This document shows, piece after piece, positions 4,410 to 18,356 of a stretch of 47,748 bases of DNA (its first letter is position 1; each line of letters starts with the position of its first letter). Position numbers and translations under genes: made by a program. Under the pieces are notes generated by a model. It was not told the DNA's origin, searched no databases, and saw only the letters and a program-made list of their open reading frames with translations. This DNA is from Actinomycetes bacterium (lineage in GTDB: Bacteria > Actinomycetota > Thermoleophilia > UBA2241): contig JAKPOQ010000034.1 of assembly GCA_029547745.1 (NCBI GenBank), positions 1-47,748 on the forward strand, read 5' to 3'.

Positions 4410-5186
4410 TCACGCCTTCTTCATCGCTGCTCCGTGTCGCGACCTCGCCTCCTTCATGCGGTAGGACTCACCCTCGGTGACCACCACGGTGGCGTGGTGG
4501 AGCAAGCGGTCGAGCAGCGAGACGGCCGTCGTCTGCTCGGGCAGGAAGCGCCCCCACTGCTCGAACGGCCAGTGGCTCGCGATCCCCAGGCTGCGGTGCT
4601 CGTAGGCCGCGGCCACGAAGCGGAAGAGGAGCTGCGTCGCGGTGTCGTCCAGGGGCGCGAAGCCGATCTCGTCGACGAGCACGAGGTCGTTGCGCAAGAG
4701 GGCGGCGATCTGCTTGCCCACCGAGTTGTCCGCGAACCCCCGGTAGAGCGCCTCGACGAGCTCGGCGGCGGTCAGGTAGCGCACCCGGTAGCCGGCCTCC
4801 ACGGCCGCCAGGCCGCAACCGAGCAGGATGTGCGTCTTGCCGGTGCCGGCGGGTCCCACGAGGCAGAGGTTCTCGGCGGCGCCGATCCACTCCAGCGAGC
4901 AGAGGTAGTCGTAGGTGGCCCGCGGCACCGAGCTCGCACCGAGGGCGAACTCCTCGAGGCTCTTGCGGACCGGGAAGCCGGCGGCCCGCAGGCGCCGTTC
5001 CTCGTTGGCGGCGTCGCGGGCAGCGATCTCCGCCTCGACCAGCGTCCGCAAGAGCTCCTCCGGCGCCCAGCGCTGCACCTTGGCCGCCTGCAGCACCTCG
5101 GGGGCGATCTCGCGCAGGCGCCTGAGCTTGAGACGCTTCAGGGCCGCCTCGAGGTCGGGCGCCAGGGGCGTCGCCGGGGCGCTCAT
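4410..5186 (-). CDS. istB: IS21 helper ATPase IstB
   Basis: Walker A GPAGTGKTHILLG, LVLVDEIGF; DnaC-like. Confidence 0.95.
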   Translation of the reverse strand: MSAPATPLAPDLEAALKRLKLRRLREIAPEVLQAAKVQRWAPEELLRTLVEAEIAARDAANEERRLRAAGFPVRKSLEEFALGASSVPRATYDYLCSLEWIGAAENLCLVGPAGTGKTHILLGCGLAAVEAGYRVRYLTAAELVEALYRGFADNSVGKQIAALLRNDLVLVDEIGFAPLDDTATQLLFRFVAAAYEHRSLGIASHWPFEQWGRFLPEQTTAVSLLDRLLHHATVVVTEGESYRMKEARSRHGAAMKKA

Positions 5187-6640
5187 CGCTCGCCCGCCAG
5201 GGCGTAGTCGGTGAGGGGCCGGACCGGTACCGCCGGGAGCCCGACGGCGAGCGGCGCCCCGGGACCGACCGCCGCCGGCACACCCTCCCCGGCGGCGAGG
5301 ATGGAGGCGAGGTCGGCGGCCCGGAAGCAGCGGAAGGTGAGGGCCCGGGTGAGGGCCCGCCGCAGGGCCTCAGGACCCCAGGCGCAGGCGAGCTCGTCGA
5401 TCTCCGCGATCTCGGCGGCCAGGCGCGGCGTACCGGCGGCCGCGGCGGCCACGAGGAAGGCCTCGGCCTCGGGTCCCAGGGCGAGGAACGCCTTCTCGGC
5501 GGCGGAGCGGGCGCGTGGGGAACGCACCGGGGCGCGGCGCGGGCCGCCGTAGTGCTCGTCGCGGAGCGCGACGGCGCCGGGGGCGACCAGTCGGTGACGG
5601 GCGACCTCGGCGCCGCCGGCGAAGACGACGAGGTCGCCCTCTTCGACCAGCACACGCACGGCATGACCGACCAGCTCGGCCGGCACCGAGTAGCGGGCGG
5701 AGCCGAAGCGCACGCAGGCGAGGCGGTCGACCTTGCGCGAGACCCCGGCGGCGAGCGCCGGGCGCAGGCTCGGCAGGGGGCGCAGCAGCTCCTGCTCGAC
5801 GGTGAGGCGCTCAGCGGGCACGGCACAGGTCTCGGCGTGCGGGCGGCCGTTGACCTCCGCGCACCAGCGCGCCGCGGCGGCGTTGGCCTCCCCGAGGTCG
5901 GCGAACGGCCCCAGGCCGCCGAGGAGGTCGCTCTCGGCGTAGCCGACGAGGTTCTCGACGATGCCCTTCGACTCGGGGTCGTCGGGGGCGCAGAAGTCGC
6001 AGCGGAAGCCGTAGTGGGCGGCGAAGCGCAGGTACTCGGGGTGGGGCACGACGAGCCCCGCCACGGTGGTCGCCCGCAGGCAGGCCATGCGGTCGGCGAG
6101 CACGACCGCGGGCACACCGCCGAGGGTCTCGAAGCACTCCGCCAGAAGGCGTAGCGTGGTGGTGCGCCGCTGGTCGCGCGCGAAGCGCACGAAGCGTGTG
6201 CGGCTCCAGGCGAGCACGCAGCAGAAGACCTCGAGGCCGTCCCTGCTCCCCCAGTCGATGACGAGGTGCTCGCCGGGCTCGTGGACCCAGGGACGGTAGA
6301 CGCGCCGTCGACGCCGCCAGGCGGCCTTGGCCTCAGCTACGGCGCGGCGCAGGTTGCGCGCCGAGCCGGCGTAGCCCGCGGCCCGGGCGGCGGGCAGCAG
6401 GCGCTTGGCGCTGATGCGGCCGTCGGTCTGGCGCACGCGCTCCTCGATCAGGGGGGCGACCATGTCGGTGTTGTGCGTACGCCGCGACGCCGGCCGGCGC
6501 TCGAAGCGTCCCTGCCCGGCACGCTCGACGACGCGGCGCACGGTCTTATGGTTCACCCCGCAGACGGCGGCCGCGCCGCGGTAGCTCCCGGTTCGCTGAT
6601 AGGCATCGACGATGTTCATGCACTCCTCCGCTCTCTTCAC
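5183..6640 (-). CDS. istA: IS21 transposase IstA
   Basis: HTH plus DDE integrase core (VIDWGSRDGLEVFCCVLAWSR...YGFRCDFCAPDDPESKGIVENLVGY); 4-bp ATGA overlap with istB. Confidence 0.93.
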   Translation of the reverse strand: MKRAEECMNIVDAYQRTGSYRGAAAVCGVNHKTVRRVVERAGQGRFERRPASRRTHNTDMVAPLIEERVRQTDGRISAKRLLPAARAAGYAGSARNLRRAVAEAKAAWRRRRRVYRPWVHEPGEHLVIDWGSRDGLEVFCCVLAWSRTRFVRFARDQRRTTTLRLLAECFETLGGVPAVVLADRMACLRATTVAGLVVPHPEYLRFAAHYGFRCDFCAPDDPESKGIVENLVGYAESDLLGGLGPFADLGEANAAAARWCAEVNGRPHAETCAVPAERLTVEQELLRPLPSLRPALAAGVSRKVDRLACVRFGSARYSVPAELVGHAVRVLVEEGDLVVFAGGAEVARHRLVAPGAVALRDEHYGGPRRAPVRSPRARSAAEKAFLALGPEAEAFLVAAAAAGTPRLAAEIAEIDELACAWGPEALRRALTRALTFRCFRAADLASILAAGEGVPAAVGPGAPLAVGLPAVPVRPLTDYALAGER

Positions 6641-6777
6641 TCCTCGTCTCCCTCGGCTGACGGCTGTCGGCTGCTGCCCACAGGTTCGCCACCGGGGAGA
6701 CCCGGAGACTCTCAGATCACGTGAGGGTGGAGACTTTCATCTGGCCACCAGTGGAGACTTTCGCATGGCCATGGACA

Positions 6778-7593
6778 CGCGGAGTGCCGCCGGTGCGGGT
6801 TGTAGAAGCCCTCGATGTAGCTGAACACGGCGAGGCGCGCGTCGTCGCGCCGCTTGAAGCGTTCGCGCTGCACGAGCTCGGTCTTGAAGGAGGCCATGAA
6901 GCTCTCGGCGGCGGCGTTGTCGAACGCGTCGCCAGGACTCCCCATGGAGGCGAGGATCCCCGACTCGCGCAGGGTCCGTCCGAAGGCCAGGGAGCGATAC
7001 TGCCCGCCCCTGTCCGAATGATGGACGAGTCCGGCCCTCGGCCGCCGGCGGGTGGTCGCCATGCCGAGGGCGTCGATCACGATGTCGGCCCGAAGGTCGT
7101 CGCGCATCGGCCAGCCGACGCAGTAGCGGCTGCAGGCGTCGATGACCGCAGCGAGGAAGAGCCACCCCTCCCAGGTCGGGATGTAGGTGATGTCGGCGAC
7201 CCAGAGCTCGTCGGGCGCTGTCGCGGTGAAGTTGCGGCGCACGAGATCGGGCGCCGCCGGAGTCTCCGCTTCCGAGTGCCGCACCCGGCGCTTGCCGCGC
7301 CGCGAGACCTCCTCGAGCCCCAGCTCGCGCATCAAGCGGGCGACGCGCTTGCGGGCAATGGGAAGACCGTCCACGGCGCGCAGCTCCGCATGGATGCGCG
7401 GCGCGCCGTAGGTGCCGAACGAAGCCTTGTGGATCTCGCGGATCCGCGCCTTGAGGCACTCGTCCTGGCGCGCTCTTGGGGACGGCGGTCGCCGCTTCCA
7501 AGCGTGGTAGCCCGCGGTGGTCACACCGAGCACGCGGGCGAGACGGGAGACGCTGTGGTGCGACCTCTCTTCCTCGATCAGGCGGAACTTCAT
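6778..7593 (-). pseudogene. 5' part of IS3 orfB transposase, disrupted by IS21
   Basis: [24 protein letters not shown]...DELWVADITYIPT...HHSDRGGQY...YNPHRRHSA; rve/DDE core. Confidence 0.93.
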
Positions 7594-7892
7594 TTGCGCC
7601 GATCGGTCTCCCGAGCGAAGAAAAGCGCGGCCTTGCGCAGGATCTCCTTCTCCTCCTCGAGGATGCGCACCTCGCGGCGCAGGCGCAGCAGTTCGGCGCG
7701 TTCCTCGCTGGTGAGACCCTCCGTGAGGCCCTCGTCGACCTCCGCCTGGCGGACCCAGGCGCGCAGCGTGCCAGGGGCGATGCCGAGCTGACGCGCCGTC
7801 GGCCGGATGCCTCGCTGGCCGACGCGGTACAGGCGGACGGCCTCGCGTCTGAACTCGGGCGTGTGCGCCACGTCGACTCCCTTCTCGGACAC
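7590..7892 (-). CDS. IS3-family OrfA (HTH_Tnp_1)
   Basis: [37 protein letters not shown]; stop overlaps orfB ATG (ATGA). Confidence 0.92.
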
Positions 7893-7958
7893 TCAAGGTG
7901 CCCACTTTCAGGGTGTCAACGAGAACGGGTCAACTCCAAATTGTTCATGGAGGCCCAC

Positions 7959-8763: not shown

Positions 8764-9873
8764 TCAGGGACTGCGCGCCGCCCGCCGCAGGCCGGCGGCG
8801 CGGGCCGCATCGAGTGCGGCTCCGAACTCAGCGCGCGTGATCCGGCGAGCGATGGAGCGCAGGTCCGCGACACGGTCCCGGCCGTCGCTGACGACGTCGG
8901 TCTGGTCGTTCCGCGCCGCCGTGTTCCCGGCGTCGCGAGCAGGCGCGGCGTCTTCCCGATGTACACGTCCCCCGTCGCGTCTGGGCGCCGCCTCTGCCAG
9001 GCGCTGCCGTCCGTCTCTCTGCCCACGATCGACATCGGCGGTCGCAAGGCTGGCCTCGGCGCACGGGCGGTACTGGTCCATCACGTTGACGAACGTGTCC
9101 GGACTGAGCCCGGCGAGGAACGCGAACACCTGCTCGCTCTCCGCGACCAGTCCCGGCATGACCAGGTGGCGGACGAGCAAACCGCGCACCGCGAGTCCGT
9201 CCGCGCCCACCACGAGGTCGCCGACCTGGCGCTGCATCTCGGTCATCGCGCGGCGCACGACCTCGGGGTAGTCGCGCGCCGTAAGGTACCGCTCGGCGGG
9301 CTCGGCGTCGAGCAGCTTGACGTCGGGCATGTAGATGTCGACGACGCCGTCGAGGAGCGCCAGCGTCTCGACGGCGTCGTACCCGCCGGTGTTGTAGACG
9401 ATCGGGATGCGCAAGCCCTGAGGGACAGCAATGGCCAGTGCGGCGAGGATCTGTGCGACGACGTGCGACGGTGTGACGAGGTTCAGGTTGTGGCAACCCA
9501 TGTCCTGCACGTCGAGGAAGACGGCGGCGAGCTGCGCCGGAGCGAGCTCCTCCCCGGCCGGCCGGTGCGAGATCTCGCTGTTCTGACAGAACCGGCAACG
9601 CAGGTTACAGCCGCCGAAGAACACCGTCCCCGAGCCGGCTCGCCCGCGGAGGACCGACTCCTCGCCGTGGTGTGGGCCATAGCTCGCGACTCTGGCACGG
9701 GCGCCGATGCCGCAGACACCGCCGGCGCCGGTCGTACGGTCGACACCGCAGCGGCGCGGACAGAGCTCGCAAGCGGCGAGCAGTCGGGCGGCGCGCTGCG
9801 CGCGCCGCCCGAGCTCGCCGCTCTCGCTCAGGGCGACGTAGGAGGGTCGGCCTGTCCGGCTGGGCGGTCTCAT
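8764..9873 (-). CDS. PflA-like radical SAM protein (COG1313 type)
   Basis: GGCNLRCRFCQNSEISH (CxxxCxxC), VYNTGGYDAVETLALLDGVVDIYMPDVKL, NVMDQYRPC; C-terminal ARRITRAEFGAALDAARAAGL. Confidence 0.88.
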   Translation of the reverse strand: MRPPSRTGRPSYVALSESGELGRRAQRAARLLAACELCPRRCGVDRTTGAGGVCGIGARARVASYGPHHGEESVLRGRAGSGTVFFGGCNLRCRFCQNSEISHRPAGEELAPAQLAAVFLDVQDMGCHNLNLVTPSHVVAQILAALAIAVPQGLRIPIVYNTGGYDAVETLALLDGVVDIYMPDVKLLDAEPAERYLTARDYPEVVRRAMTEMQRQVGDLVVGADGLAVRGLLVRHLVMPGLVAESEQVFAFLAGLSPDTFVNVMDQYRPCAEASLATADVDRGQRDGRQRLAEAAPRRDGGRVHREDAAPARDAGNTAARNDQTDVVSDGRDRVADLRSIARRITRAEFGAALDAARAAGLRRAARSP

Positions 9874-10071
9874 CGCATCCGGTATGGCACACCCGTGACC
9901 AGCGCGCAAGGTGCGGCTTGAGGGGCGCAGCAGCCTGCTGCCGACAAGGTGCGGCTCACGGCTTCGGTACATCGCCGCCCAGAAGGCACAGCTTCACCTG
10001 CTGCACGCGACGGCGAGGACACCGCCTCACGTCGTCACTCGGCGCCGACAGAGGCCATGGCGCTGACGGAC

Positions 10072-10168: not shown

Positions 10169-10987
10169 TCATCCCAGGATCAGCCGCTGGGGGTCGACTT
10201 CGTCGCGCAAGATGCGGAGCTCCTCGGCGTCCGGAGGCGTCGCCTCAGCCGCGCGGGTGACGTCCATGGTGAAGCCGGTGTTCTCGGTCACCTCTCCGGT
10301 CGTCACGCCGGGGTAGTACTCGGCGAGGTACATCTCCTTCGTCGCCTCGTCGAACTTCATGACGCCGAGGTCGCTGACCACGGCGAGCGGCCCGCCACGC
10401 CGGTACCCGGCGTGGCGCCGCGACTCGCCGCCCGTCAGCCAGCCCGGCGTCGTCAGGTAATCGAGCTTCTCGACGAACTTGCGTCTTCCGTGGTGCATGA
10501 ACACGAGGAAGCCGCTGGCCAGCGAGCCGGCGTCGCAGGCCCCGCCGCTCCCCGAGAAGCGGACCTTCGGATGGCGGTAGTCGCCGATGACGGTGGAGTT
10601 CAGGTTGCCGTAACGGTCGATCTGCGCGGCGCCGAGGAAGGCGATCGTGTGCAGGCGTCGGTTGGCGACGTAGCTGAACGCCTCGACGAGGCCGGCGTTG
10701 AGGTTGGAGTAGGCCATGACGCGGGAATCGGCCACAGCCATCGGCAGTTCTTCGAGCTGTGGCCCGATTCCCCCGGTCTCGAAGAAGATGTGCGCCCGCG
10801 GGGCGTGGATGCGCTTGGCGACGGTCGCCGCCAGCATCGCCACGCCCGTCCCAGCGAAGAGCACATCGCCGTCCTTGATGAGGCGGCCGGCGGCGATGGC
10901 CATCATCTCGCGCGCGGTGTATGCGGGCGGCGGAGTGGGCGTAGCGCCGGGCGAAGGGGCGGAGGGCGTGTGTGTAGGGTCGGCCAT
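10169..10987 (-). CDS. CoA-transferase subunit B (glutaconate CoA-transferase-like)
   Basis: FFETGGIGPQ catalytic-Glu region, LGAAQIDRYGNLNSTVIGDY, FSGSGGACD. Confidence 0.9.
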   Translation of the reverse strand: MADPTHTPSAPSPGATPTPPPAYTAREMMAIAAGRLIKDGDVLFAGTGVAMLAATVAKRIHAPRAHIFFETGGIGPQLEELPMAVADSRVMAYSNLNAGLVEAFSYVANRRLHTIAFLGAAQIDRYGNLNSTVIGDYRHPKVRFSGSGGACDAGSLASGFLVFMHHGRRKFVEKLDYLTTPGWLTGGESRRHAGYRRGGPLAVVSDLGVMKFDEATKEMYLAEYYPGVTTGEVTENTGFTMDVTRAAEATPPDAEELRILRDEVDPQRLILG

Positions 10988-10992
10988 CTTCC

Positions 10993-11970
10993 TCACCTCC
11001 TGTCCAGGCCCGGCGCGTAGCCGGCGACCGTGTTGGCGCGGATGTGCGCGAGCTGCGCTCCTCCGACCTTGTCGAGGTACGCGTCCCAGCTCCCGATGCC
11101 GTACACCCACTCGTCCAGATATGTGGCCCACTGCTCGTCGTCCTTGGCCATCGCCTTGTACAGGTTCAGGTGCTTGGGGTCGTAGTCGTAGAAGGACCGG
11201 CAAGCGGTCGGGTGGGCGCCGTACGGCACGGGCACGACGGCGTCGACCAGGAACGGCGGCAGCGCGTTCTGGTCGGGGTCGATGCGGAGGTAGCTCTCGG
11301 GGACGATCTCTTCACAGGTCACGACCACCACCGAGGCCGCCTTGCACTGCTCGAGGTCGGCGAACGTGAGGCCCTTGATGCGGACGGTCCCGTCGGTGCT
11401 CACCTGCTGGGCATGGATGAGCGAGACGTCCGGCGTCAGCGCGGGGAGGAGGGCGACGTCGTCGTCGGGGTGGCCGAAGGGGTCGGCCATGACGTGGACC
11501 TTCTTCCTTGCCACCTTGACGCCGTCGCGGATCTTGGGCGGGAAGCCTTCTTGCCGAAGGACGTCCGTCCCCAGGCCTGACTTGCTGGGGATGAACGGGA
11601 CGCTCAGGGCGCCGGCCAGGAAGCGCAGGCTCATTTGGTTGTTCGTGTAGTCCTCGACGAGCACCTCGCCGCGCTCGACCGCCTTGCGGAAGCGGATGCA
11701 GGTCGGGGCGAAGCGTCCGTTGCCGCCGTAGGCGACCTCGATGCGCGAGACGCAGCCCGCGCCCACCAGGACGTCGAGCGCCTGTCCGTTGGAATGGGCG
11801 ACGAGGTGCAGGTCGCGGATCCGGCGACGGGCGATCTCGTAGACGAGCGCCATCGGGTTGCGGTTGATGGTGAAGCCGCCCACGGCGATCTGCTGGCCGT
11901 CGCGGACGAAGCGCTCGACGGCTTCACCGACGGTCATCAGCTTGCTGTCGAGCCCGTTCGGTTCGCCCAT
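10993..11970 (-). CDS. CoA-transferase subunit A (glutaconate CoA-transferase-like)
   Basis: MTVGEAVERFVRDGQQIAVGGF, RNPMALVYEIARR, HAQQVSTDGTVRIKGLTFADLEQ. Confidence 0.9.
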   Translation of the reverse strand: MGEPNGLDSKLMTVGEAVERFVRDGQQIAVGGFTINRNPMALVYEIARRRIRDLHLVAHSNGQALDVLVGAGCVSRIEVAYGGNGRFAPTCIRFRKAVERGEVLVEDYTNNQMSLRFLAGALSVPFIPSKSGLGTDVLRQEGFPPKIRDGVKVARKKVHVMADPFGHPDDDVALLPALTPDVSLIHAQQVSTDGTVRIKGLTFADLEQCKAASVVVVTCEEIVPESYLRIDPDQNALPPFLVDAVVPVPYGAHPTACRSFYDYDPKHLNLYKAMAKDDEQWATYLDEWVYGIGSWDAYLDKVGGAQLAHIRANTVAGYAPGLDRR

Positions 11971-12132
11971 GCGCCGCCTCCTTGAGTCTCATGGGGCCCA
12001 GAAACGCGAAAGCCCCCAGGGCAGACACGATCGTCTCCGCTGGGGGACATGGCCGGGACAGGCGGGAGGACGGCTCCCTGCCGTGGCCATGCGGCAGCGC
12101 GTCCATGATACAGGCGCCGACGACCGGCGCAA
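11971..12132 (-). promoter_or_regulatory. Promoter (TTGCGC-N16-TATCAT) plus structured 5' leader of the CoA-transferase operon
   Basis: -35 at 12127-12132, -10 at 12105-12110 (both RC); hairpin CCCCCAG...CTGGGGG (12013-12046); CGTTTC; SD aaggagg. Confidence 0.65.
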
Positions 12133-12147
12133 GCGACGTCGCGCTGA

Positions 12148-12153
12148 TAGAAT
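12148..12153 (+). promoter_or_regulatory. -10-like box (TAGAAT) 9 bp before the DUF3870 start (possible leaderless transcript)
   Basis: TAGAAT-gatgcggcg-ATG. Confidence 0.4.
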
Positions 12154-12162
12154 GATGCGGCG

Positions 12163-12579
12163 ATGGTCTCCGCTGACGGACAGGGGGACAAGTTGCCCGC
12201 CCACGACACGACCTTCCTGTTCTCGGGCTACGCCCGCCTGCCGCAAGACGTCTCGCACCAGGCGATCTACAAGCGCGTCGGCGTCGTCCTCGAGGTCGAC
12301 GAGATGGGCGTCATCGTCGGCTGCACCGCCTCACTGATCATGGACACGGCGCGCGACTTCTTCGCGCGCCTCCTGCTCGGCCGTAACGTCCTCAACGAGC
12401 GGCGCGAGATCGAGGCGCTCATCCGCTACCGCTACCGCGGCCACTCCCAGGGCGCCCTCATCTCGGCCCTGCACAAGGTCTTCGAGGCCGTCGACCAGTC
12501 ACCCCTCGTGCTCGGCGACGCCGCCTTCCCGCTGCCCAGCGCGAAGAACCCGGACGTGGGCACCGAGACGTACGGCTGA
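12163..12579 (+). CDS. DUF3870 family protein
   Basis: FLFSGYARLPQDVSHQAIYKRVGVVLEVDEMGVIVGCTASLIMDTARDFFARLLLGRN...IRYRYRGHSQGALISAL. Confidence 0.85.
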   Translation: MVSADGQGDKLPAHDTTFLFSGYARLPQDVSHQAIYKRVGVVLEVDEMGVIVGCTASLIMDTARDFFARLLLGRNVLNERREIEALIRYRYRGHSQGALISALHKVFEAVDQSPLVLGDAAFPLPSAKNPDVGTETYG

Positions 12580-12640
12580 GCCGTCCCTCGCGTCGTACAC
12601 CCGGTCGGATCTTGCTCCACAATGGCGAAACGGCGCCTGC

Positions 12641-12802
12641 TTGCGCCTGCGGCAGCGGCGTGTATGATGTCCGCGCTGCACACAGAGCCGCAGACGGGCG
12701 CCGTCTCCGCCCGCCGGCCGCAGGCTTTGGACCCCCAGCGACCGCGCAAGCGTTCCCTGGGGGTCTCGTCGTTTCCGGGGACAGGTCCAAAGGAGGAGCC
12801 GC
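12641..12802 (+). promoter_or_regulatory. Promoter (TTGCGC-N16-TATGAT) plus structured 5' leader of the acyl-CoA dehydrogenase gene
   Basis: -35 12641-12646, -10 12663-12668; hairpin GACCCCCAG (12730-12738)/CTGGGGGTC (12757-12765); CGTTTC; SD aaggagg. Confidence 0.65.
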
Positions 12803-14035
12803 ATGGACTTCCGTTACACCACCGAGCAGGACATGTACCGCCAGGCGATCCGCGAATGGCTGACCAAGAACCTCGAGCCGCGGGCGCGCGCGATCGACGA
12901 GGCCGAGGACGGGATCCCCGACGACATCACCGCCGGCATGGCGGAACTAGGGATGTTCGGCGTCACCATCCCCGAGCAGTACGGCGGCATGCCGCTCCCC
13001 GATGACGAGCGCCTCATCTACGCGATGATCACCGTCCACGAGATCGCGCGCGCCGACCTCAGCATGAGCACGCCCGTGTATACCCTGCTCACCATCGGCT
13101 GGTCGTACATCGTCAACCGCTACGGCACGGAGGAGCTCAAGCAGGAACTGCTGCCGGCGGTGGCCGCCGGCAAGGCGTTCGCCGGCATCAACACGACCGA
13201 GCCCGGCGGCGGCTCCGACCTCGCCGCCATCAAGACGGTCGCCCTGTGGAACGAAGAGAAGCAGGTCTACGTCATGAACGGCGAGAAGGCCTACGTCTCC
13301 GGGCCCAAGGAGTGCGCCAAGTGGGGCCCGCCCAGCGGCCACTGCACCCTCGTCAAGACCGACCCGAACCAGGGACACAAGGGCATGACCTTCATCTGGG
13401 TCCCCGCCCACCTGCCCGGCATCACCTACACGACCTACAAGGACATGGGTCGCATGGGCCTGAGCACCGGCGGCTGGATCTACAAGGATGTCGAGCTGCC
13501 CAAGAAGTACGTGCTCGGCGAAGAGGGCAAGGGGTTCTACGTCAACATGGACGGCTTCAACGCCGCCCGCGTCCTAGTCGCGGCCGCCTGCCTCGGCGGG
13601 GCCGAGAAGGCGCTCGAGATCAGCGGCGAGTACACGGCGCAGCGCAAGACCTTCGGCAAGCCGCTCGGCAAGTGGGAGGGCATCTCGTTCGAGATGGCCG
13701 ACGACTGGATGCAGCTCGACATGCTCAAGCTCAACCTGCTGCGTGGCGCGTGGATGATCGGCCAGGAGCACACCAACCCCGGCCAGTTCAGCCGCAAGGA
13801 CATCAACAAGGTCATCTCGACGTGCAAGTGCCTCAGCCCGACCTTGTGCCACGACATCGCCCGCCACGGGATGATGTACCACGGCGCCTTCGGCTACACG
13901 AAGGAGACCCCGCTCGAGATGCTGCTTCGCGGCGTCATGAGCTACGAGGTCGGCGCCGAGGGTGGTTTGATGATCATGCGCGGCATCATCGCCCGCGACG
14001 AGTGGGGCGACACGCACAACCCGTTCAAGGATTAG
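12803..14035 (+). CDS. Acyl-CoA dehydrogenase
   Basis: FAGINTTEPGGGSDLAAIKT, YVMNGEKAYVSG, QRKTFGKPLGKWEGISFEMADDWMQLDM. Confidence 0.96.
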   Translation: MDFRYTTEQDMYRQAIREWLTKNLEPRARAIDEAEDGIPDDITAGMAELGMFGVTIPEQYGGMPLPDDERLIYAMITVHEIARADLSMSTPVYTLLTIGWSYIVNRYGTEELKQELLPAVAAGKAFAGINTTEPGGGSDLAAIKTVALWNEEKQVYVMNGEKAYVSGPKECAKWGPPSGHCTLVKTDPNQGHKGMTFIWVPAHLPGITYTTYKDMGRMGLSTGGWIYKDVELPKKYVLGEEGKGFYVNMDGFNAARVLVAAACLGGAEKALEISGEYTAQRKTFGKPLGKWEGISFEMADDWMQLDMLKLNLLRGAWMIGQEHTNPGQFSRKDINKVISTCKCLSPTLCHDIARHGMMYHGAFGYTKETPLEMLLRGVMSYEVGAEGGLMIMRGIIARDEWGDTHNPFKD

Positions 14036-14163: not shown

Positions 14164-15450
14164 ATGGAAAAGGTCGAGTGCATCGTCGTCGGTGGTGGTC
14201 TCGCAGGCCTGTCGGCCGCGTACGGACTCGCCGGCGCCGGCGCCGAGGTCATGGTGCTCGAGCGCGGCGACTACTCCGGCGCCAAGAACGTCACCGGCGG
14301 CCGTCTGTACGTGAGTCCGATCCGCGGCTTCTACCCCGAGCTCTGGGAGGAGGCGCCTTTCGAGCGCCCCGTCGCCCGCGAGCTCATCACCATGATGGGC
14401 GACGGCGCCCATACCACGTTCGAGCTCGCCTCGGACCGTCTGGCCCACCCGCCCCAGTCATACACGGTGGTGCGCGCCCGGCTCGACCAGTGGCTGGCCG
14501 AGAAGGTCGGCGAGAAGGGCGGCATGGTCGTCCCCGGCATGAAGGTGGACGAGCTGCTGCGCAAGGAAGGCCGCATCGTCGGTATCCGCGCCGGCGCCGA
14601 CGAGATCGGCGCCGACGTGGTCGTCGTCGCCGAGGGCGTGTTGCGGCTGTTGGCGGAACCGGCCGGGCTCGCCGCCCGGCCGGTCGACCGCGACCACGCC
14701 CTCGGCTACAAGGAAGTCATCGAGTTGCCGGCCGGCGTGATCGAAGACCGCTGGAACCTCAATCCCGGCGAGGGCGCCGCCCAGTTGTTCCTTGGGTCCG
14801 TGACCCAAGGCATGCTGGGCGGCGGCTTCCTCTACACGAACAAGGAGAGCATCTCGCTCGGCGTCGTCGTCGGCATGCAGGCGATGAAGGCCGACGGCCG
14901 TGAGATCAAGTCGCACGAGCTCCTCGACCGCTGGAAGGAGCTGCCGCAGATCAAGCCGCTCGTGGCCGGCGGTACGGTGGCGGAGTACTCCGCGCACGCC
15001 ATCCCCGAGGGCGGCATCGCCAAGGTGCCGCGGCTCTACGGCGACGGCTACGTCCTCGCCGGTGACGCCGCGGGCCTCAGCCTTAACGCCCTCGTCACCG
15101 TGCGCGGCATGGACTTCGCCATCGCCTCGGGCTACTACGCCGCGCAGGCGATCCTCAGGGCGAGGCAGGCGGGCGACTTCTCGGCCGCCGGCCTGGCGTC
15201 GTACGAGGTGGCCCTGCGCGACAGCTTCGTCCTCAAGGACCTCGAGACGGCGCGGATCTACCCGCAGTTCATGGAACTGCCGCGCCTCTTCACGCACTAC
15301 CCGACGGCGGTGTCGCGTCTCTTCGAGGATGTCTTCACCATCGGGCCCGGCCCCACCCCGTCGCTGATGAAGAAGGCCTGGAAGGGCATCAGGCGTGACT
15401 TCCTGAACCTCGGCACGCTGCAGGATGCGTGGCTGGCGCGCAAGCTGTGA
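14164..15450 (+). CDS. fixC: FixC-like electron transfer flavoprotein-quinone oxidoreductase
   Basis: CIVVGGGLAGLSAAYGLAGAGAEVMVLERG, YVLAGDAAGLSLNALVTVRGMDFAIASG. Confidence 0.92.
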   Translation: MEKVECIVVGGGLAGLSAAYGLAGAGAEVMVLERGDYSGAKNVTGGRLYVSPIRGFYPELWEEAPFERPVARELITMMGDGAHTTFELASDRLAHPPQSYTVVRARLDQWLAEKVGEKGGMVVPGMKVDELLRKEGRIVGIRAGADEIGADVVVVAEGVLRLLAEPAGLAARPVDRDHALGYKEVIELPAGVIEDRWNLNPGEGAAQLFLGSVTQGMLGGGFLYTNKESISLGVVVGMQAMKADGREIKSHELLDRWKELPQIKPLVAGGTVAEYSAHAIPEGGIAKVPRLYGDGYVLAGDAAGLSLNALVTVRGMDFAIASGYYAAQAILRARQAGDFSAAGLASYEVALRDSFVLKDLETARIYPQFMELPRLFTHYPTAVSRLFEDVFTIGPGPTPSLMKKAWKGIRRDFLNLGTLQDAWLARKL

Positions 15451-15486: not shown

Positions 15487-15762
15487 GTGAACATCGACGC
15501 CAAGCTCGGGCTCGACGTCTTCAAGCTCGACAAGGAACCGCACATCGTCATCGAGCAGGAGGTCTGCGCGACCGTGTGCACGAACCGGGCCTGCCTCTAC
15601 GTCTGCCCGGCCGACCTCTACGAGCTCGACGACGAGCAGCGCATGACGGTGAACTGGGAGGGCTGCCTGGAGTGCGGCACGTGCATGATCTGCTGCGAGC
15701 CGCGGGCCCTTACGTGGAACTACCCGCGCTCGCCGTTCGGCGTGCAGTACCGGATGAGCTGA
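15487..15762 (+). CDS. fixX: FixX-like ferredoxin
   Basis: CLYVCPADLYELDDEQRMTVNWEGCLECGTCMICCEPRALTWNYPRSPFGVQYR. Confidence 0.93.
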   Translation: MNIDAKLGLDVFKLDKEPHIVIEQEVCATVCTNRACLYVCPADLYELDDEQRMTVNWEGCLECGTCMICCEPRALTWNYPRSPFGVQYRMS

Positions 15763-15889: not shown

Positions 15890-16621
15890 ATGGACGAACT
15901 GAGCGCCCTGCTCGGGGCGAACACCTATCCGGGGCGCGGCCTGGTGCTCGCCGGCACGGCGCACGGCGCCCTGGTGGCCTACTTCGTGACGGGGCGCAGC
16001 CCCGCATCGCAGCAGAGGGAGATCCGCCGCGGCGCGGCCGGCGAGCTGCTCGTCAGCCCCCTCGGCGAGGGGGCTGACGACCCGCTCCGCCACTACGCCG
16101 CGGCGCGTACGTCGGACGACTGGCTGGTCGTCGGCAACGGTCGTCAGGTCGACACGGTGCTCGAGAAGCTCGAGGCTGGGCATGCGCCCCAGATCGCGCT
16201 GGACGGCCTCGAGCACGAGCCCGACGCGCCGATCTTCACTGACCGGATCACCCTCGTCGTGTCGCGGGCGACGCCCGTCGAAGCTGTCTTCGGCGTCGCC
16301 CGGCGGAGCGCCGGGGGACGGACGACGAGCGACATCCATATGCTCGTCGTCCGCGAGCCGGCGCCGGGCGACGCCGTCCTGCTCACGACCTACAAGTCGG
16401 ACGGCGAGACGATCGAAGGTGGCCGTCCGTTCCTCGAGGCGTCCTGGGCGGCTGGCGGCGCGGCCGCCGAGGCCGTGAACGCCGCCCCCAAGGCCGTGAA
16501 CGCCGCCGGACTGCTCGACACGGTCTGGGCGGCGCTCGAGCCCCGGTATCGCGTCGCTGCCATGGCCCTCGATCCCGCCCATGGGCTCGGGGGTGCGCTC
16601 ATCAGGAACGAGAGGAGGTGA
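15890..16621 (+). CDS. IMP cyclohydrolase (PurO)-like protein
   Basis: NTYPGRGLVLAG...YFVTGRSPASQQREI, NGRQVDTVLEKL, LEHEPDAPIFTDRI, LTTYKSDGETIEGGRPF. Confidence 0.8.
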   Translation: MDELSALLGANTYPGRGLVLAGTAHGALVAYFVTGRSPASQQREIRRGAAGELLVSPLGEGADDPLRHYAAARTSDDWLVVGNGRQVDTVLEKLEAGHAPQIALDGLEHEPDAPIFTDRITLVVSRATPVEAVFGVARRSAGGRTTSDIHMLVVREPAPGDAVLLTTYKSDGETIEGGRPFLEASWAAGGAAAEAVNAAPKAVNAAGLLDTVWAALEPRYRVAAMALDPAHGLGGALIRNERR

Positions 16622-16625
16622 CCCC

Positions 16626-17405
16626 TTGGACATCGTCGTGTGCGTGAAGACCAACCCGGACCCGCAGATGGTCCGCATCAGGAACCGGGAGCCGGTGCTC
16701 GAGGCGGTGCCGTACAAGCTCGGCGACCTTGACAAGAACGCCCTCGAGGCGGCGATCCAGGTGCGCGACGCGGTCGGCGGCAAGGTCGTCGCGGTGACCG
16801 TGGCCGAGACGAACCGCAAGATCAAGGAGACGGTCAAGGAGGCGCTCGCCATGGGCGCCGACGAAGCGGTGATCGTCGACGATCCGGCGGCGATGACGCT
16901 CGACCAGGCGGCGGTCGCGACCGTGATCGCCGCCGCCGTCAAGAAGCTGCCCGCCTGCGACCTGCTCCTCTTCGGCGAGGGCTCGAGCGACAACTACACC
17001 GGTCAGGTGCCGTCGCGCGTTGCCGAGAAGCTCGGCGTGCCGCAGGTCGGGTACGCGCGCAAGGTCGAGGCGGCCGAAGGCGCTGTGCGCTGCGAGCGCA
17101 GCATGGACGAGATGATCGAGACGCTCGAGCTTCCCCTGCCGGCCGCCGTCACCGTCGTCAGCGAGATCAACGAACCCCGTATCCCCTCGCTCATGCACAT
17201 CATGAAGGCGGGCTCCAAGCCGACGCAGGTCTGGACGCTGGCCGACATCGGCGTCGACGCGGCCGCGCTGGCGCCGAAGCAGGAGGTCGTGTCGAACCTC
17301 GCCGAGGAGCAGGACCGCAAGCACGTCCTGTTCGAGGGCGCCGCCGCGGAGCAGGCCGCGGCCTTCGTCGACGCGCTCGTCAAAGAAGGCGTGGTGGGGA
17401 GGTAG
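16626..17405 (+). CDS. fixA: FixA / electron transfer flavoprotein beta subunit
   Basis: TTG start after gaggaggtg; MDIVVCVKTNPDPQMVRIRNREPVLE, EPRIPSLMHIMKA. Confidence 0.93.
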   Translation: MDIVVCVKTNPDPQMVRIRNREPVLEAVPYKLGDLDKNALEAAIQVRDAVGGKVVAVTVAETNRKIKETVKEALAMGADEAVIVDDPAAMTLDQAAVATVIAAAVKKLPACDLLLFGEGSSDNYTGQVPSRVAEKLGVPQVGYARKVEAAEGAVRCERSMDEMIETLELPLPAAVTVVSEINEPRIPSLMHIMKAGSKPTQVWTLADIGVDAAALAPKQEVVSNLAEEQDRKHVLFEGAAAEQAAAFVDALVKEGVVGR

Positions 17406-17408
17406 ACC

Positions 17409-18356
17409 ATGGCCGATCTGCTTGTCTACAGCGAGAAGACCCAGACGGCCTGCGAGCTGGCCGCGAAAGGGCGCGAGTTCGCCCAGGCGCTCGGGCTCGG
17501 CGTGAGCGCCGCCGCCCTGGGCGAAGGAGCTGCGGCGGCCGCCCCCGAGCTCGGCGCCGCCGGCGCCGACCGGGTGTTCGTGAGCGAGGACCCGGCCCTC
17601 GCCGGCTGGCCGGCCGACGCGGTGGCCGCCGCCCTGGCGCAGATCGCCGCCGAGGCCGGCGCCACGGTCGTCCTGCTCGGCTCGACGCGGCGCGGCAAGG
17701 AGCTCGCCGGCCGCCTGGCCGAGAAGCTCGGCGCCGGCGCCGTCACCGACGTCAATGCCCTGGAGCTCGAGGGCGGCGAGTTCGTCGCCGCGCGCTACGC
17801 CTTCGGCGGCGCCACGATCGCGCGCGAGAAGGTGGCGAGCGACGTCAGGGTGTTCGCCATCATGCCCAAGACCTTCTCCAATGAGGGCGCGAGCCCCGGC
17901 GCCGGCACGGTGATCACGCCGGCGCTGCAGCTCGCGACGGGCATGAAGGTGGTCGAGCGCCGCGCCAAGGAGGGCGGCGCCGTCAGCCTCGACGCGGCGC
18001 CGCGCATCGTCGGCGTCGGCCGCGGCTTCGGCAAGAAGGAGGACCTCGCCCTCGGCGAGGAGCTCGCCGCCGCCCTCGAGGCCGTCGTCGGCTGCACCAA
18101 GAGTCTCGCCGACTTCCAGTGGTTGGGCGAGGACCGCATCATCGGCCTGTCGGGCGCCAAGACGTCCCCGGACCTCTACGTCGGCGTCGGCATCTCGGGG
18201 CAGGTCCAGCACACCGTGGGAGTCGCGAGCGCCAAGCTGATCGCGGCGATCAACAAGGATAAGGAAGCGCCCATCTTCCAGATGGCCGACTACGGCATCG
18301 TCGGTGACCTCTACGAGGTCGTGCCGGCCGTGATCGAGCGGCTCAAGGCGGTGTGA
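17409..18356 (+). CDS. fixB: FixB / electron transfer flavoprotein alpha subunit
   Basis: VGVGRGFGKKEDLALGEELAAALEAVVGCTKSLAD...DLYVGVGISGQVQHTVGVASAKLIAAINKDKEAPIFQMADYGIVGDLYEVVP. Confidence 0.95.
   Translation: MADLLVYSEKTQTACELAAKGREFAQALGLGVSAAALGEGAAAAAPELGAAGADRVFVSEDPALAGWPADAVAAALAQIAAEAGATVVLLGSTRRGKELAGRLAEKLGAGAVTDVNALELEGGEFVAARYAFGGATIAREKVASDVRVFAIMPKTFSNEGASPGAGTVITPALQLATGMKVVERRAKEGGAVSLDAAPRIVGVGRGFGKKEDLALGEELAAALEAVVGCTKSLADFQWLGEDRIIGLSGAKTSPDLYVGVGISGQVQHTVGVASAKLIAAINKDKEAPIFQMADYGIVGDLYEVVPAVIERLKAV

Follow-up and report, generated by a model that had tools for sequence, protein, structure and literature searches.

Two divergent operons lie on either side of a DUF3870 gene in the DNA analysed here, the 47,748-nucleotide (nt) contig JAKPOQ010000034.1 of an Actinomycetes bacterium (assembly GCA_029547745.1; class Thermoleophilia), which we call the window. 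The leftward operon begins with the genes of a glutaconate-CoA-transferase-like enzyme (CoA, coenzyme A), the rightward one with an acyl-CoA dehydrogenase gene, and the DUF3870 gene (12163–12579, + strand; Pfam PF12986) is situated between their two leaders, downstream of neither. An initial annotation had noted that these leaders share promoters, a hairpin, a CGTTTC string and an AAGGAGG string, and we found all of these at the spacing it gave. The left-operon promoter (12105–12132, − strand), read directly, consists of TTGCGC (12132–12127), 16 nt and TATCAT (12110–12105); the right-operon promoter (12641–12668, + strand), read directly and compared across homologues, consists of TTGCGC (12641–12646), 16 nt and TATGAT (12663–12668). 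Downstream of TATCAT, the left leader contains CGCGCTGC, starting at 12101, and then the hairpin CCCCCAG (12046–12040), a 20-nt loop, CTGGGGG (12019–12013), 6 nt, a CGTTTC ending at 12001, AAGGAGG and an ATG whose end is 11970. In the right leader, CCCCCAG (12732–12738), an 18-nt loop, CTGGGGG (12757–12763), 6 nt and a CGTTTC ending at 12775 are followed by AAGGAGG (12790–12796) and the ATG at 12803. The pattern of stem, loop range and CGTTTC has exactly two matches in the 2.27-Mb genome, and none in the reversed control.

The conserved fold of the leaders

Homologous leaders were first gathered by a DUF3870 protein search of 60 related genomes, followed by reading of the regions flanking the matches. 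They share a block that begins six nt past the −10 box and runs GCUGCACACAUGGCY, a variable hairpin (its loop often CCGUCUC) and RGCYAUGRRCYYCCAGC. In most of them, a promoter of the same −35/−10 type is found 6 nt 5′ of this block, which constitutes an aptamer-like RNA fold of about 62 nt composed of a helix P1 (GCUG/CAGC), a 7-bp helix P2 and a hairpin P3. Judging from the promoter spacing, transcription is predicted to start at the first G of P1 (GCUG), so that the fold would occupy the very 5′ end of the transcript. The strings singled out by the initial annotation are right, but the true unit is larger, in that CGCGCTGC represents the 5′ strand of P1 and the segment rich in CCGTC/CCCGCC represents the P3 region.

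The left copy of the aptamer-like domain (12039–12098, − strand; covariance-model match 12038–12099, 56.4 bits) pairs GCTG (12098–12095) with CAGC (12042–12039) in P1 and CATGGCC (12091–12085) with GGCCATG (12054–12048) in P2, and its P3 spans approximately 12082–12061. In the right copy (12675–12739, + strand; match 12674–12740, 72 bits), P1 is formed by GCTG (12675–12678) and CAGC (12736–12739), P2 by CAGAGCC (12683–12689) and GGCTTTG (12723–12729), and P3 by CGGGCG (12695–12700) and CGCCCG (12708–12713) around the loop CCGUCUC. Covariation supports both copies. When P1 was imposed in folding, P1, P2 and P3 formed in nearly every homologous leader. Whereas most relatives have CAUGGCY/RGCYAUG in P2, the right leader of the window has CAGAGCC/GGCUUUG, which is a compensatory change.

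The covariation score of 20 leaders collected by hand was 0.273, compared with 0.152 after shuffling and at most 0.106 when the pairing partners were slid. For the 31 leaders found with the covariance model, the score was 0.323, against 0.164 in shuffled alignments (0/500 shuffles) and at most 0.090 with slid partners; 92.5% of the cells in this alignment are paired, and double changes occupy 55 cells versus 16.9 after shuffling. Because the 31-row alignment was fitted to the covariance model, its counts favour the structure; the 20-row alignment was not fitted. The strong covariation is located in P2 and P3, and RNAalifold, to which no structure was supplied, recovered essentially the same structure. 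The 31 aptamers are diverse (mean pairwise identity 64%, minimum 46%). We therefore regard it as close to certain that the structured RNA is real, and the proposal of a structured cis-regulatory RNA, an attenuator or ligand sensor, gains support from these covarying helices. A recent local duplication limited to this genome, which would have explained the likeness of the two leaders trivially, is ruled out, because the two aptamers of the window are only 61% identical to each other and because, of the 15 genomes of the window's family that were searched, 12 retain both leaders next to orthologues of the same genes.

The internal loop between P1 and P2 is asymmetric, with CACA or CGC on its 5′ side and a pyrimidine-rich (Y-rich) strand on its 3′ side. 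Across the 31 leaders, the near-invariant unpaired nucleotides are C6, C8 and this Y-rich strand. The CoA-transferase leaders of genera g1 and g6 (window 12098–12039; L007, L008, L009, L010, L011 and L083) constitute a sub-type with one nt fewer in each strand of the loop (GCUGC-CGCAUGG, AUGUCCCCCAGC), and the affinity or ligand of this sub-type could be different from that of the dehydrogenase leader.

The downstream hairpin and its overlap with P1

The run of C residues and the CAG that close P1 double as the 5′ arm of the CCCCCAG...CUGGGGG hairpin. Because the 3′ strand of P1 thus lies within the 5′ arm of the hairpin, the two structures are mutually exclusive. In the left leader, this terminator-like hairpin (12001–12046, − strand) has the arms given above and the tail CTTTCGCGTTTC; in the right leader (12729–12775, + strand), GGACCCCCAG (12729–12738) pairs with CTGGGGGTCT (12757–12766), and the tail is CGTCGTTTC. 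When we required at least 7 bp, an overlap with P1 and at least four subsequent T residues, such a hairpin was present in 25 of the 31 leaders, whereas shuffling of the downstream sequence gave 0.8 on average and never more than 4. Its length varies from 7 to 13 bp, and its outer pair alternates between A-U and G-C from leader to leader. T-runs in relatives reach TTTTTTGC; the U-run is clear in L086, L093 (tail GGGGGCTTTTTTGC) and L094 (tail GTTTTGCTTTT), and weak in the window. In folding, P1 formed in 24 of the 31 transcripts when these were cut before the 3′ arm of the hairpin, and CAGC was captured by downstream sequence in 26 of the 31 full leaders. On these folding models, an expression platform that is exclusive of the aptamer is well supported.

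Five leaders of a second family (L084, L085, L087, L088 and L089) retain the aptamer, including P1 and the Y-rich loop strand, without an overlapping hairpin. Therefore, P1 and the Y-rich loop are parts of the aptamer and not of the platform, and the two appear separable in these leaders, as is expected of riboswitches. The hairpin and CGTTTC that the initial annotation had pointed out are real, but they represent the terminator-like expression platform, and the candidate sensor is the P1-P2-P3 fold upstream.

We also considered a kissing or pseudoknot interaction between the loop of the terminator-like hairpin (GAGACG in the left leader, AAGCG in the right) and CGTTTC. This pairing is attractive in the window; it was rejected, as inspection by eye showed that it is lost in L007, L009, L010 and L011 (variants CGTTCC, CATCTC and CGTTAA). 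Because it is not retained in relatives, we take CGTTTC as the far end of a T-containing terminator tail. No conserved upstream open reading frame (uORF) was found in the leaders: the AUG within P2 is replaced by AUA, GUA or AGA in other leaders, and a leader-peptide attenuator is disfavoured for this reason.

Genes behind the leaders and their distribution

The 31 leaders come from 19 genomes in two families of one actinobacterial class, and they precede only acyl-CoA dehydrogenase-FixCXAB, glutaconate-CoA-transferase-like or CaiB-type genes; this limitation bears out the suggestion of a small regulon for an acyl-CoA and electron-transfer flavoprotein (ETF) pathway. The first genes belong to three non-homologous types (GctA-like, acyl-CoA dehydrogenase and CaiB). 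Common to these genes is the conversion of an acid into its CoA ester by non-homologous transferases, after which an acyl-CoA dehydrogenase, coupled to ETF and FixCX, oxidises or reduces the ester. In the window's family, the genes of CoA-transferase subunits A and B follow one copy, and those of the acyl-CoA dehydrogenase, FixC, an open reading frame (ORF) at the FixX position, FixA and FixB follow the other. Carriers in the second family have a single copy, placed ahead of a family III CoA transferase gene of the CaiB type and then the same dehydrogenase-FixCXAB genes; several of these loci adjoin genes that resemble respiratory complex I (named by eye from their sequences). In L079, L087 and L089, the RNA is retained, while the CaiB-type gene that separates it from the dehydrogenase elsewhere is truncated or missing.

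In the window, the left operon contains CoA-transferase subunit A (10993–11970, − strand; Pfam PF01144), whose closest solved structure is glutaconate CoA-transferase 1poi (phmmer, 218 bits), and subunit B (10169–11026, − strand; PF01144). The right operon, entirely on the + strand, begins with the acyl-CoA dehydrogenase (12803–14035; PF02771/PF02770/PF00441), whose orthologues behind the RNA in relatives are 73–95% identical. It continues with a protein of the FixC-like ETF:quinone oxidoreductase family (14164–15450; NCBIfam PRK10015, 385 bits, under the curated cut-off), a small ORF at the FixX position (15487–15762; tblastn 55–95% in relatives, no match in Pfam), the ETF beta subunit FixA (16581–17405; PF01012) and the ETF alpha subunit FixB (17409–18356; PF01012/PF00766). 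At 60% identity or more, FixC orthologues are confined to genomes that carry the RNA; the nearest further FixC (G072, 48% identity) has no such leader, its locus L129 giving no match at E-values up to 5. In G011, the RNA and the dehydrogenase lie on a contig that ends there. A gene of the PurO-like IMP cyclohydrolase family (PF07826; 15890–16621) is located within the fix operon of the window, and among the loci compared this gene was seen only in the window and in L090 (genus g1). Transposase genes of the IS21 and IS3 families (5183–7905) are situated downstream of the left operon, near a radical SAM gene (8764–9972), which adjoins the CoA transferases in L090 too.

In Escherichia coli, the cai-fix system consists of the divergent operons caiTABCDE and fixABCX, under the control of the protein CaiF. 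Its CaiB-type CoA transferase (here found in the relatives), acyl-CoA dehydrogenase and FixABCX all have counterparts behind the leaders, and the operons of the window are likewise divergent. In contrast to cai-fix, control by a leader RNA is apparent here, the CoA transferase of the window is GctAB-like, and the carnitine-specific CaiT and CaiC were not seen among the neighbours scanned.

With the covariance model R1, two strong copies each were found in 12 of the 15 genomes searched of the window's family, and one copy per carrier in 7 of 18 genomes of the second family, which belongs to the same class. The covariance model detected no other carrier among 399 sampled genomes of the class, nor among 396 sampled genomes of the phylum. 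When 84,980 named species were scanned with a pattern, strong copies appeared only in records titled as metagenome-assembled genomes of Actinomycetota, Actinobacteria, Actinomycetes or Thermoleophilia, and all other matches scored 27 bits or less. Matches in Variovorax, Halomonas, Roseovarius and Ramlibacter (14–26 bits, versus 49–68 in true copies) and in WOR-3 (L070, 27 bits, without a leader-like context) were judged to be due to chance. A third copy in G006 (L098, 1056–1118, − strand, 31 bits), in which P1 has changed to CAGG, was left out; it is possibly a decayed relic. A low-threshold search of 12 genomes found nothing above 28 bits beyond the recorded copies, and in particular none at transporters.

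Of the 60 genomes, 15 have a close orthologue of the DUF3870 protein, and these are precisely the ones with the RNA; its gene mostly lies between or beside the leaders, and more distant paralogues occur in genomes and at loci without the RNA. In its predicted structure (mean pLDDT 81), the protein is similar to IscU, an iron-sulfur scaffold (Foldseek probability up to 1.00, TM approximately 0.44–0.52, best E no lower than 0.009). A role beside the Fix and ETF genes is conceivable on this model, and our literature search returned nothing on DUF3870 function.

A candidate riboswitch class and its rivals

How might these leaders act? We consider that both probably belong to one new riboswitch class of narrow taxonomic range, which would act as a transcription ON switch through an anti-terminating P1 and sense a metabolite of the acyl-CoA pathway. 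This reading builds on the conserved fold, its covariation, the overlap of P1 with the terminator-like hairpin, the promoter spacing and the gene association, all observed computationally. In a terminating ON riboswitch, nucleotides are typically common to the aptamer and the 5′ arm of the terminator (PMC7736828). As in the known riboswitches of this type, the aptamer is at the 5′ end of the mRNA and its closing helix borrows nucleotides of the terminator 5′ arm, so that ligand binding would antiterminate; unlike them, the RNA of the window fits no Rfam family in sequence, fold or genes, and it is restricted to one actinobacterial class. Guanidine-IV (GGAM-1) is likewise a small ON-switch RNA with a Rho-independent terminator (PMC7736828), whereas in the window the terminator excludes P1, the genes are those of acyl-CoA metabolism and Rfam gives no match. 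The odc1 motif (PMC8632094) is also a leader RNA near putative family III CoA-transferases (pfam02515), but it uses a uORF and a sequestered ribosome-binding site, in contrast to the terminator-like platform described above.

None of the leaders matched Rfam 15, including its riboswitch families, at the gathering score. Even at E-values up to 5, the few matches at the 15 loci compared (the window leaders and relatives) were weak, to unrelated families and all far below gathering scores, and our literature search found no description of this motif. The class thus appears to be new, in agreement with the earlier impression that it matches no known riboswitch class. A literature search for a CoA riboswitch returned reviews only. 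According to a review from 2022 (PMC10043782), no riboswitch had been validated for CoA or for acylated forms of it; CoA, all acyl-CoAs and quinones are conspicuous gaps among riboswitch ligands; sensors of CoA derivatives, if they exist, may be rare and hard to find; and many very rare classes await discovery.

We propose the following mechanism. Transcription would begin at the first G of GCUG, and the nascent RNA would fold into P1, the internal loop, P2 and P3. Binding of the cognate small molecule, probably within the conserved loop between P1 and P2, would let P1 keep the CAGC strand; the hairpin CCCCCAG...CUGGGGG with its T-containing tail would then be blocked, and the polymerase would enter the CoA-transferase or acyl-CoA dehydrogenase-FixCXAB genes. 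If no ligand is present, the far more stable hairpin would capture CAG, and transcription would end. Such a switch would induce the acyl-CoA oxidation or reduction pathway and the electron-transfer chain when the substrate is present. Three points of this scheme are inferred: termination of transcription at the hairpin, a small molecule as the trigger, and the substrate acid or the corresponding CoA ester as that molecule. Because an ON switch at genes for acid activation and acyl-CoA dehydrogenation fits such induction, the free acid or its CoA ester is our guess for the ligand. A more far-reaching reading, doubtful albeit worth considering, makes this RNA the first natural riboswitch to respond to a CoA thioester (or to CoA, or to a quinone-linked signal); it would induce a chain of acyl-CoA dehydrogenase, ETF and FixCX along with the CoA transferase that supplies this chain with its substrate.

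Several observations weigh against the riboswitch reading, and our assignment of the leaders to the riboswitches is provisional. The P1 pairs are almost invariant across the 31 leaders; P1 is thus conserved without covariation to support it, and there could be another cause for this invariance. The tails in the window (TCTCGTCGTTTC and CTTTCGCGTTTC) are poor in T, and a strict terminator scan with a loop limit of 8 detected no terminator in the window leaders; for these reasons, termination in the window is a prediction. Moreover, the occurrence is confined to two families, unlike that of most validated riboswitches. Finally, the ligand might be a protein instead of a small molecule. In the main rival explanation, an RNA-binding protein (as in systems of the BglG/LicT type or ANTAR) stabilises a P1-P2 antiterminator, possibly with the DUF3870 protein as the partner. 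The architecture would look identical, and the matching occurrence of close DUF3870 orthologues and the RNA favours such a partnership; on the other hand, distant paralogues exist where the RNA is absent, the modelled protein has an IscU-like structure that is not among the known RNA-binding folds, the neighbours scanned included no PRD or ANTAR gene, and a RAT site is simpler than the conserved internal loop. We therefore judge a protein-controlled attenuator to be unlikely.

A structured RNA with another role that senses no molecule, such as a fixed 5′ stabiliser, a constitutive attenuator, a temperature sensor or a small RNA, seems less probable still. The narrow distribution and the 4-bp P1 leave room for it; against it stand the conserved unpaired nucleotides, the mutually exclusive terminator in most leaders, the replacement of the platform in five leaders that keep the aptamer, and the association with one pathway only, through three different first genes. 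The initial annotation had also offered a common regulator site, that is, DNA operators and promoters of common design to which a single transcription factor would respond, without any RNA function. The promoters and the GCTGC at +1 are indeed conserved, and a regulator of the FCD-GntR type is encoded near an f4 locus. Nevertheless, P2 and P3 show compensatory changes such as that in the right leader, pairing collapses when partners are slid, and the GCTGC and CCAGC blocks, which are the arms of P1, are variably spaced across leaders; because conservation is driven by pairing and the P1 arms vary in spacing, a site in DNA is very improbable.

Returning to the riboswitch reading, the leaders show all the features looked for by computation that mark a riboswitch class, the U-run being weak in the window, and they would control genes of CoA-thioester metabolism. 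They would represent a rare class at the very genes where the review cited above marks a gap among ligands. If the ligand is of the acyl-CoA type, the molecule sensed may be of a kind for which no riboswitch is known, and the shortness of this RNA lets the question of whether a natural RNA can sense acyl-CoA be addressed directly. The leaders also provide a handle on the physiology of these uncultured actinobacteria.
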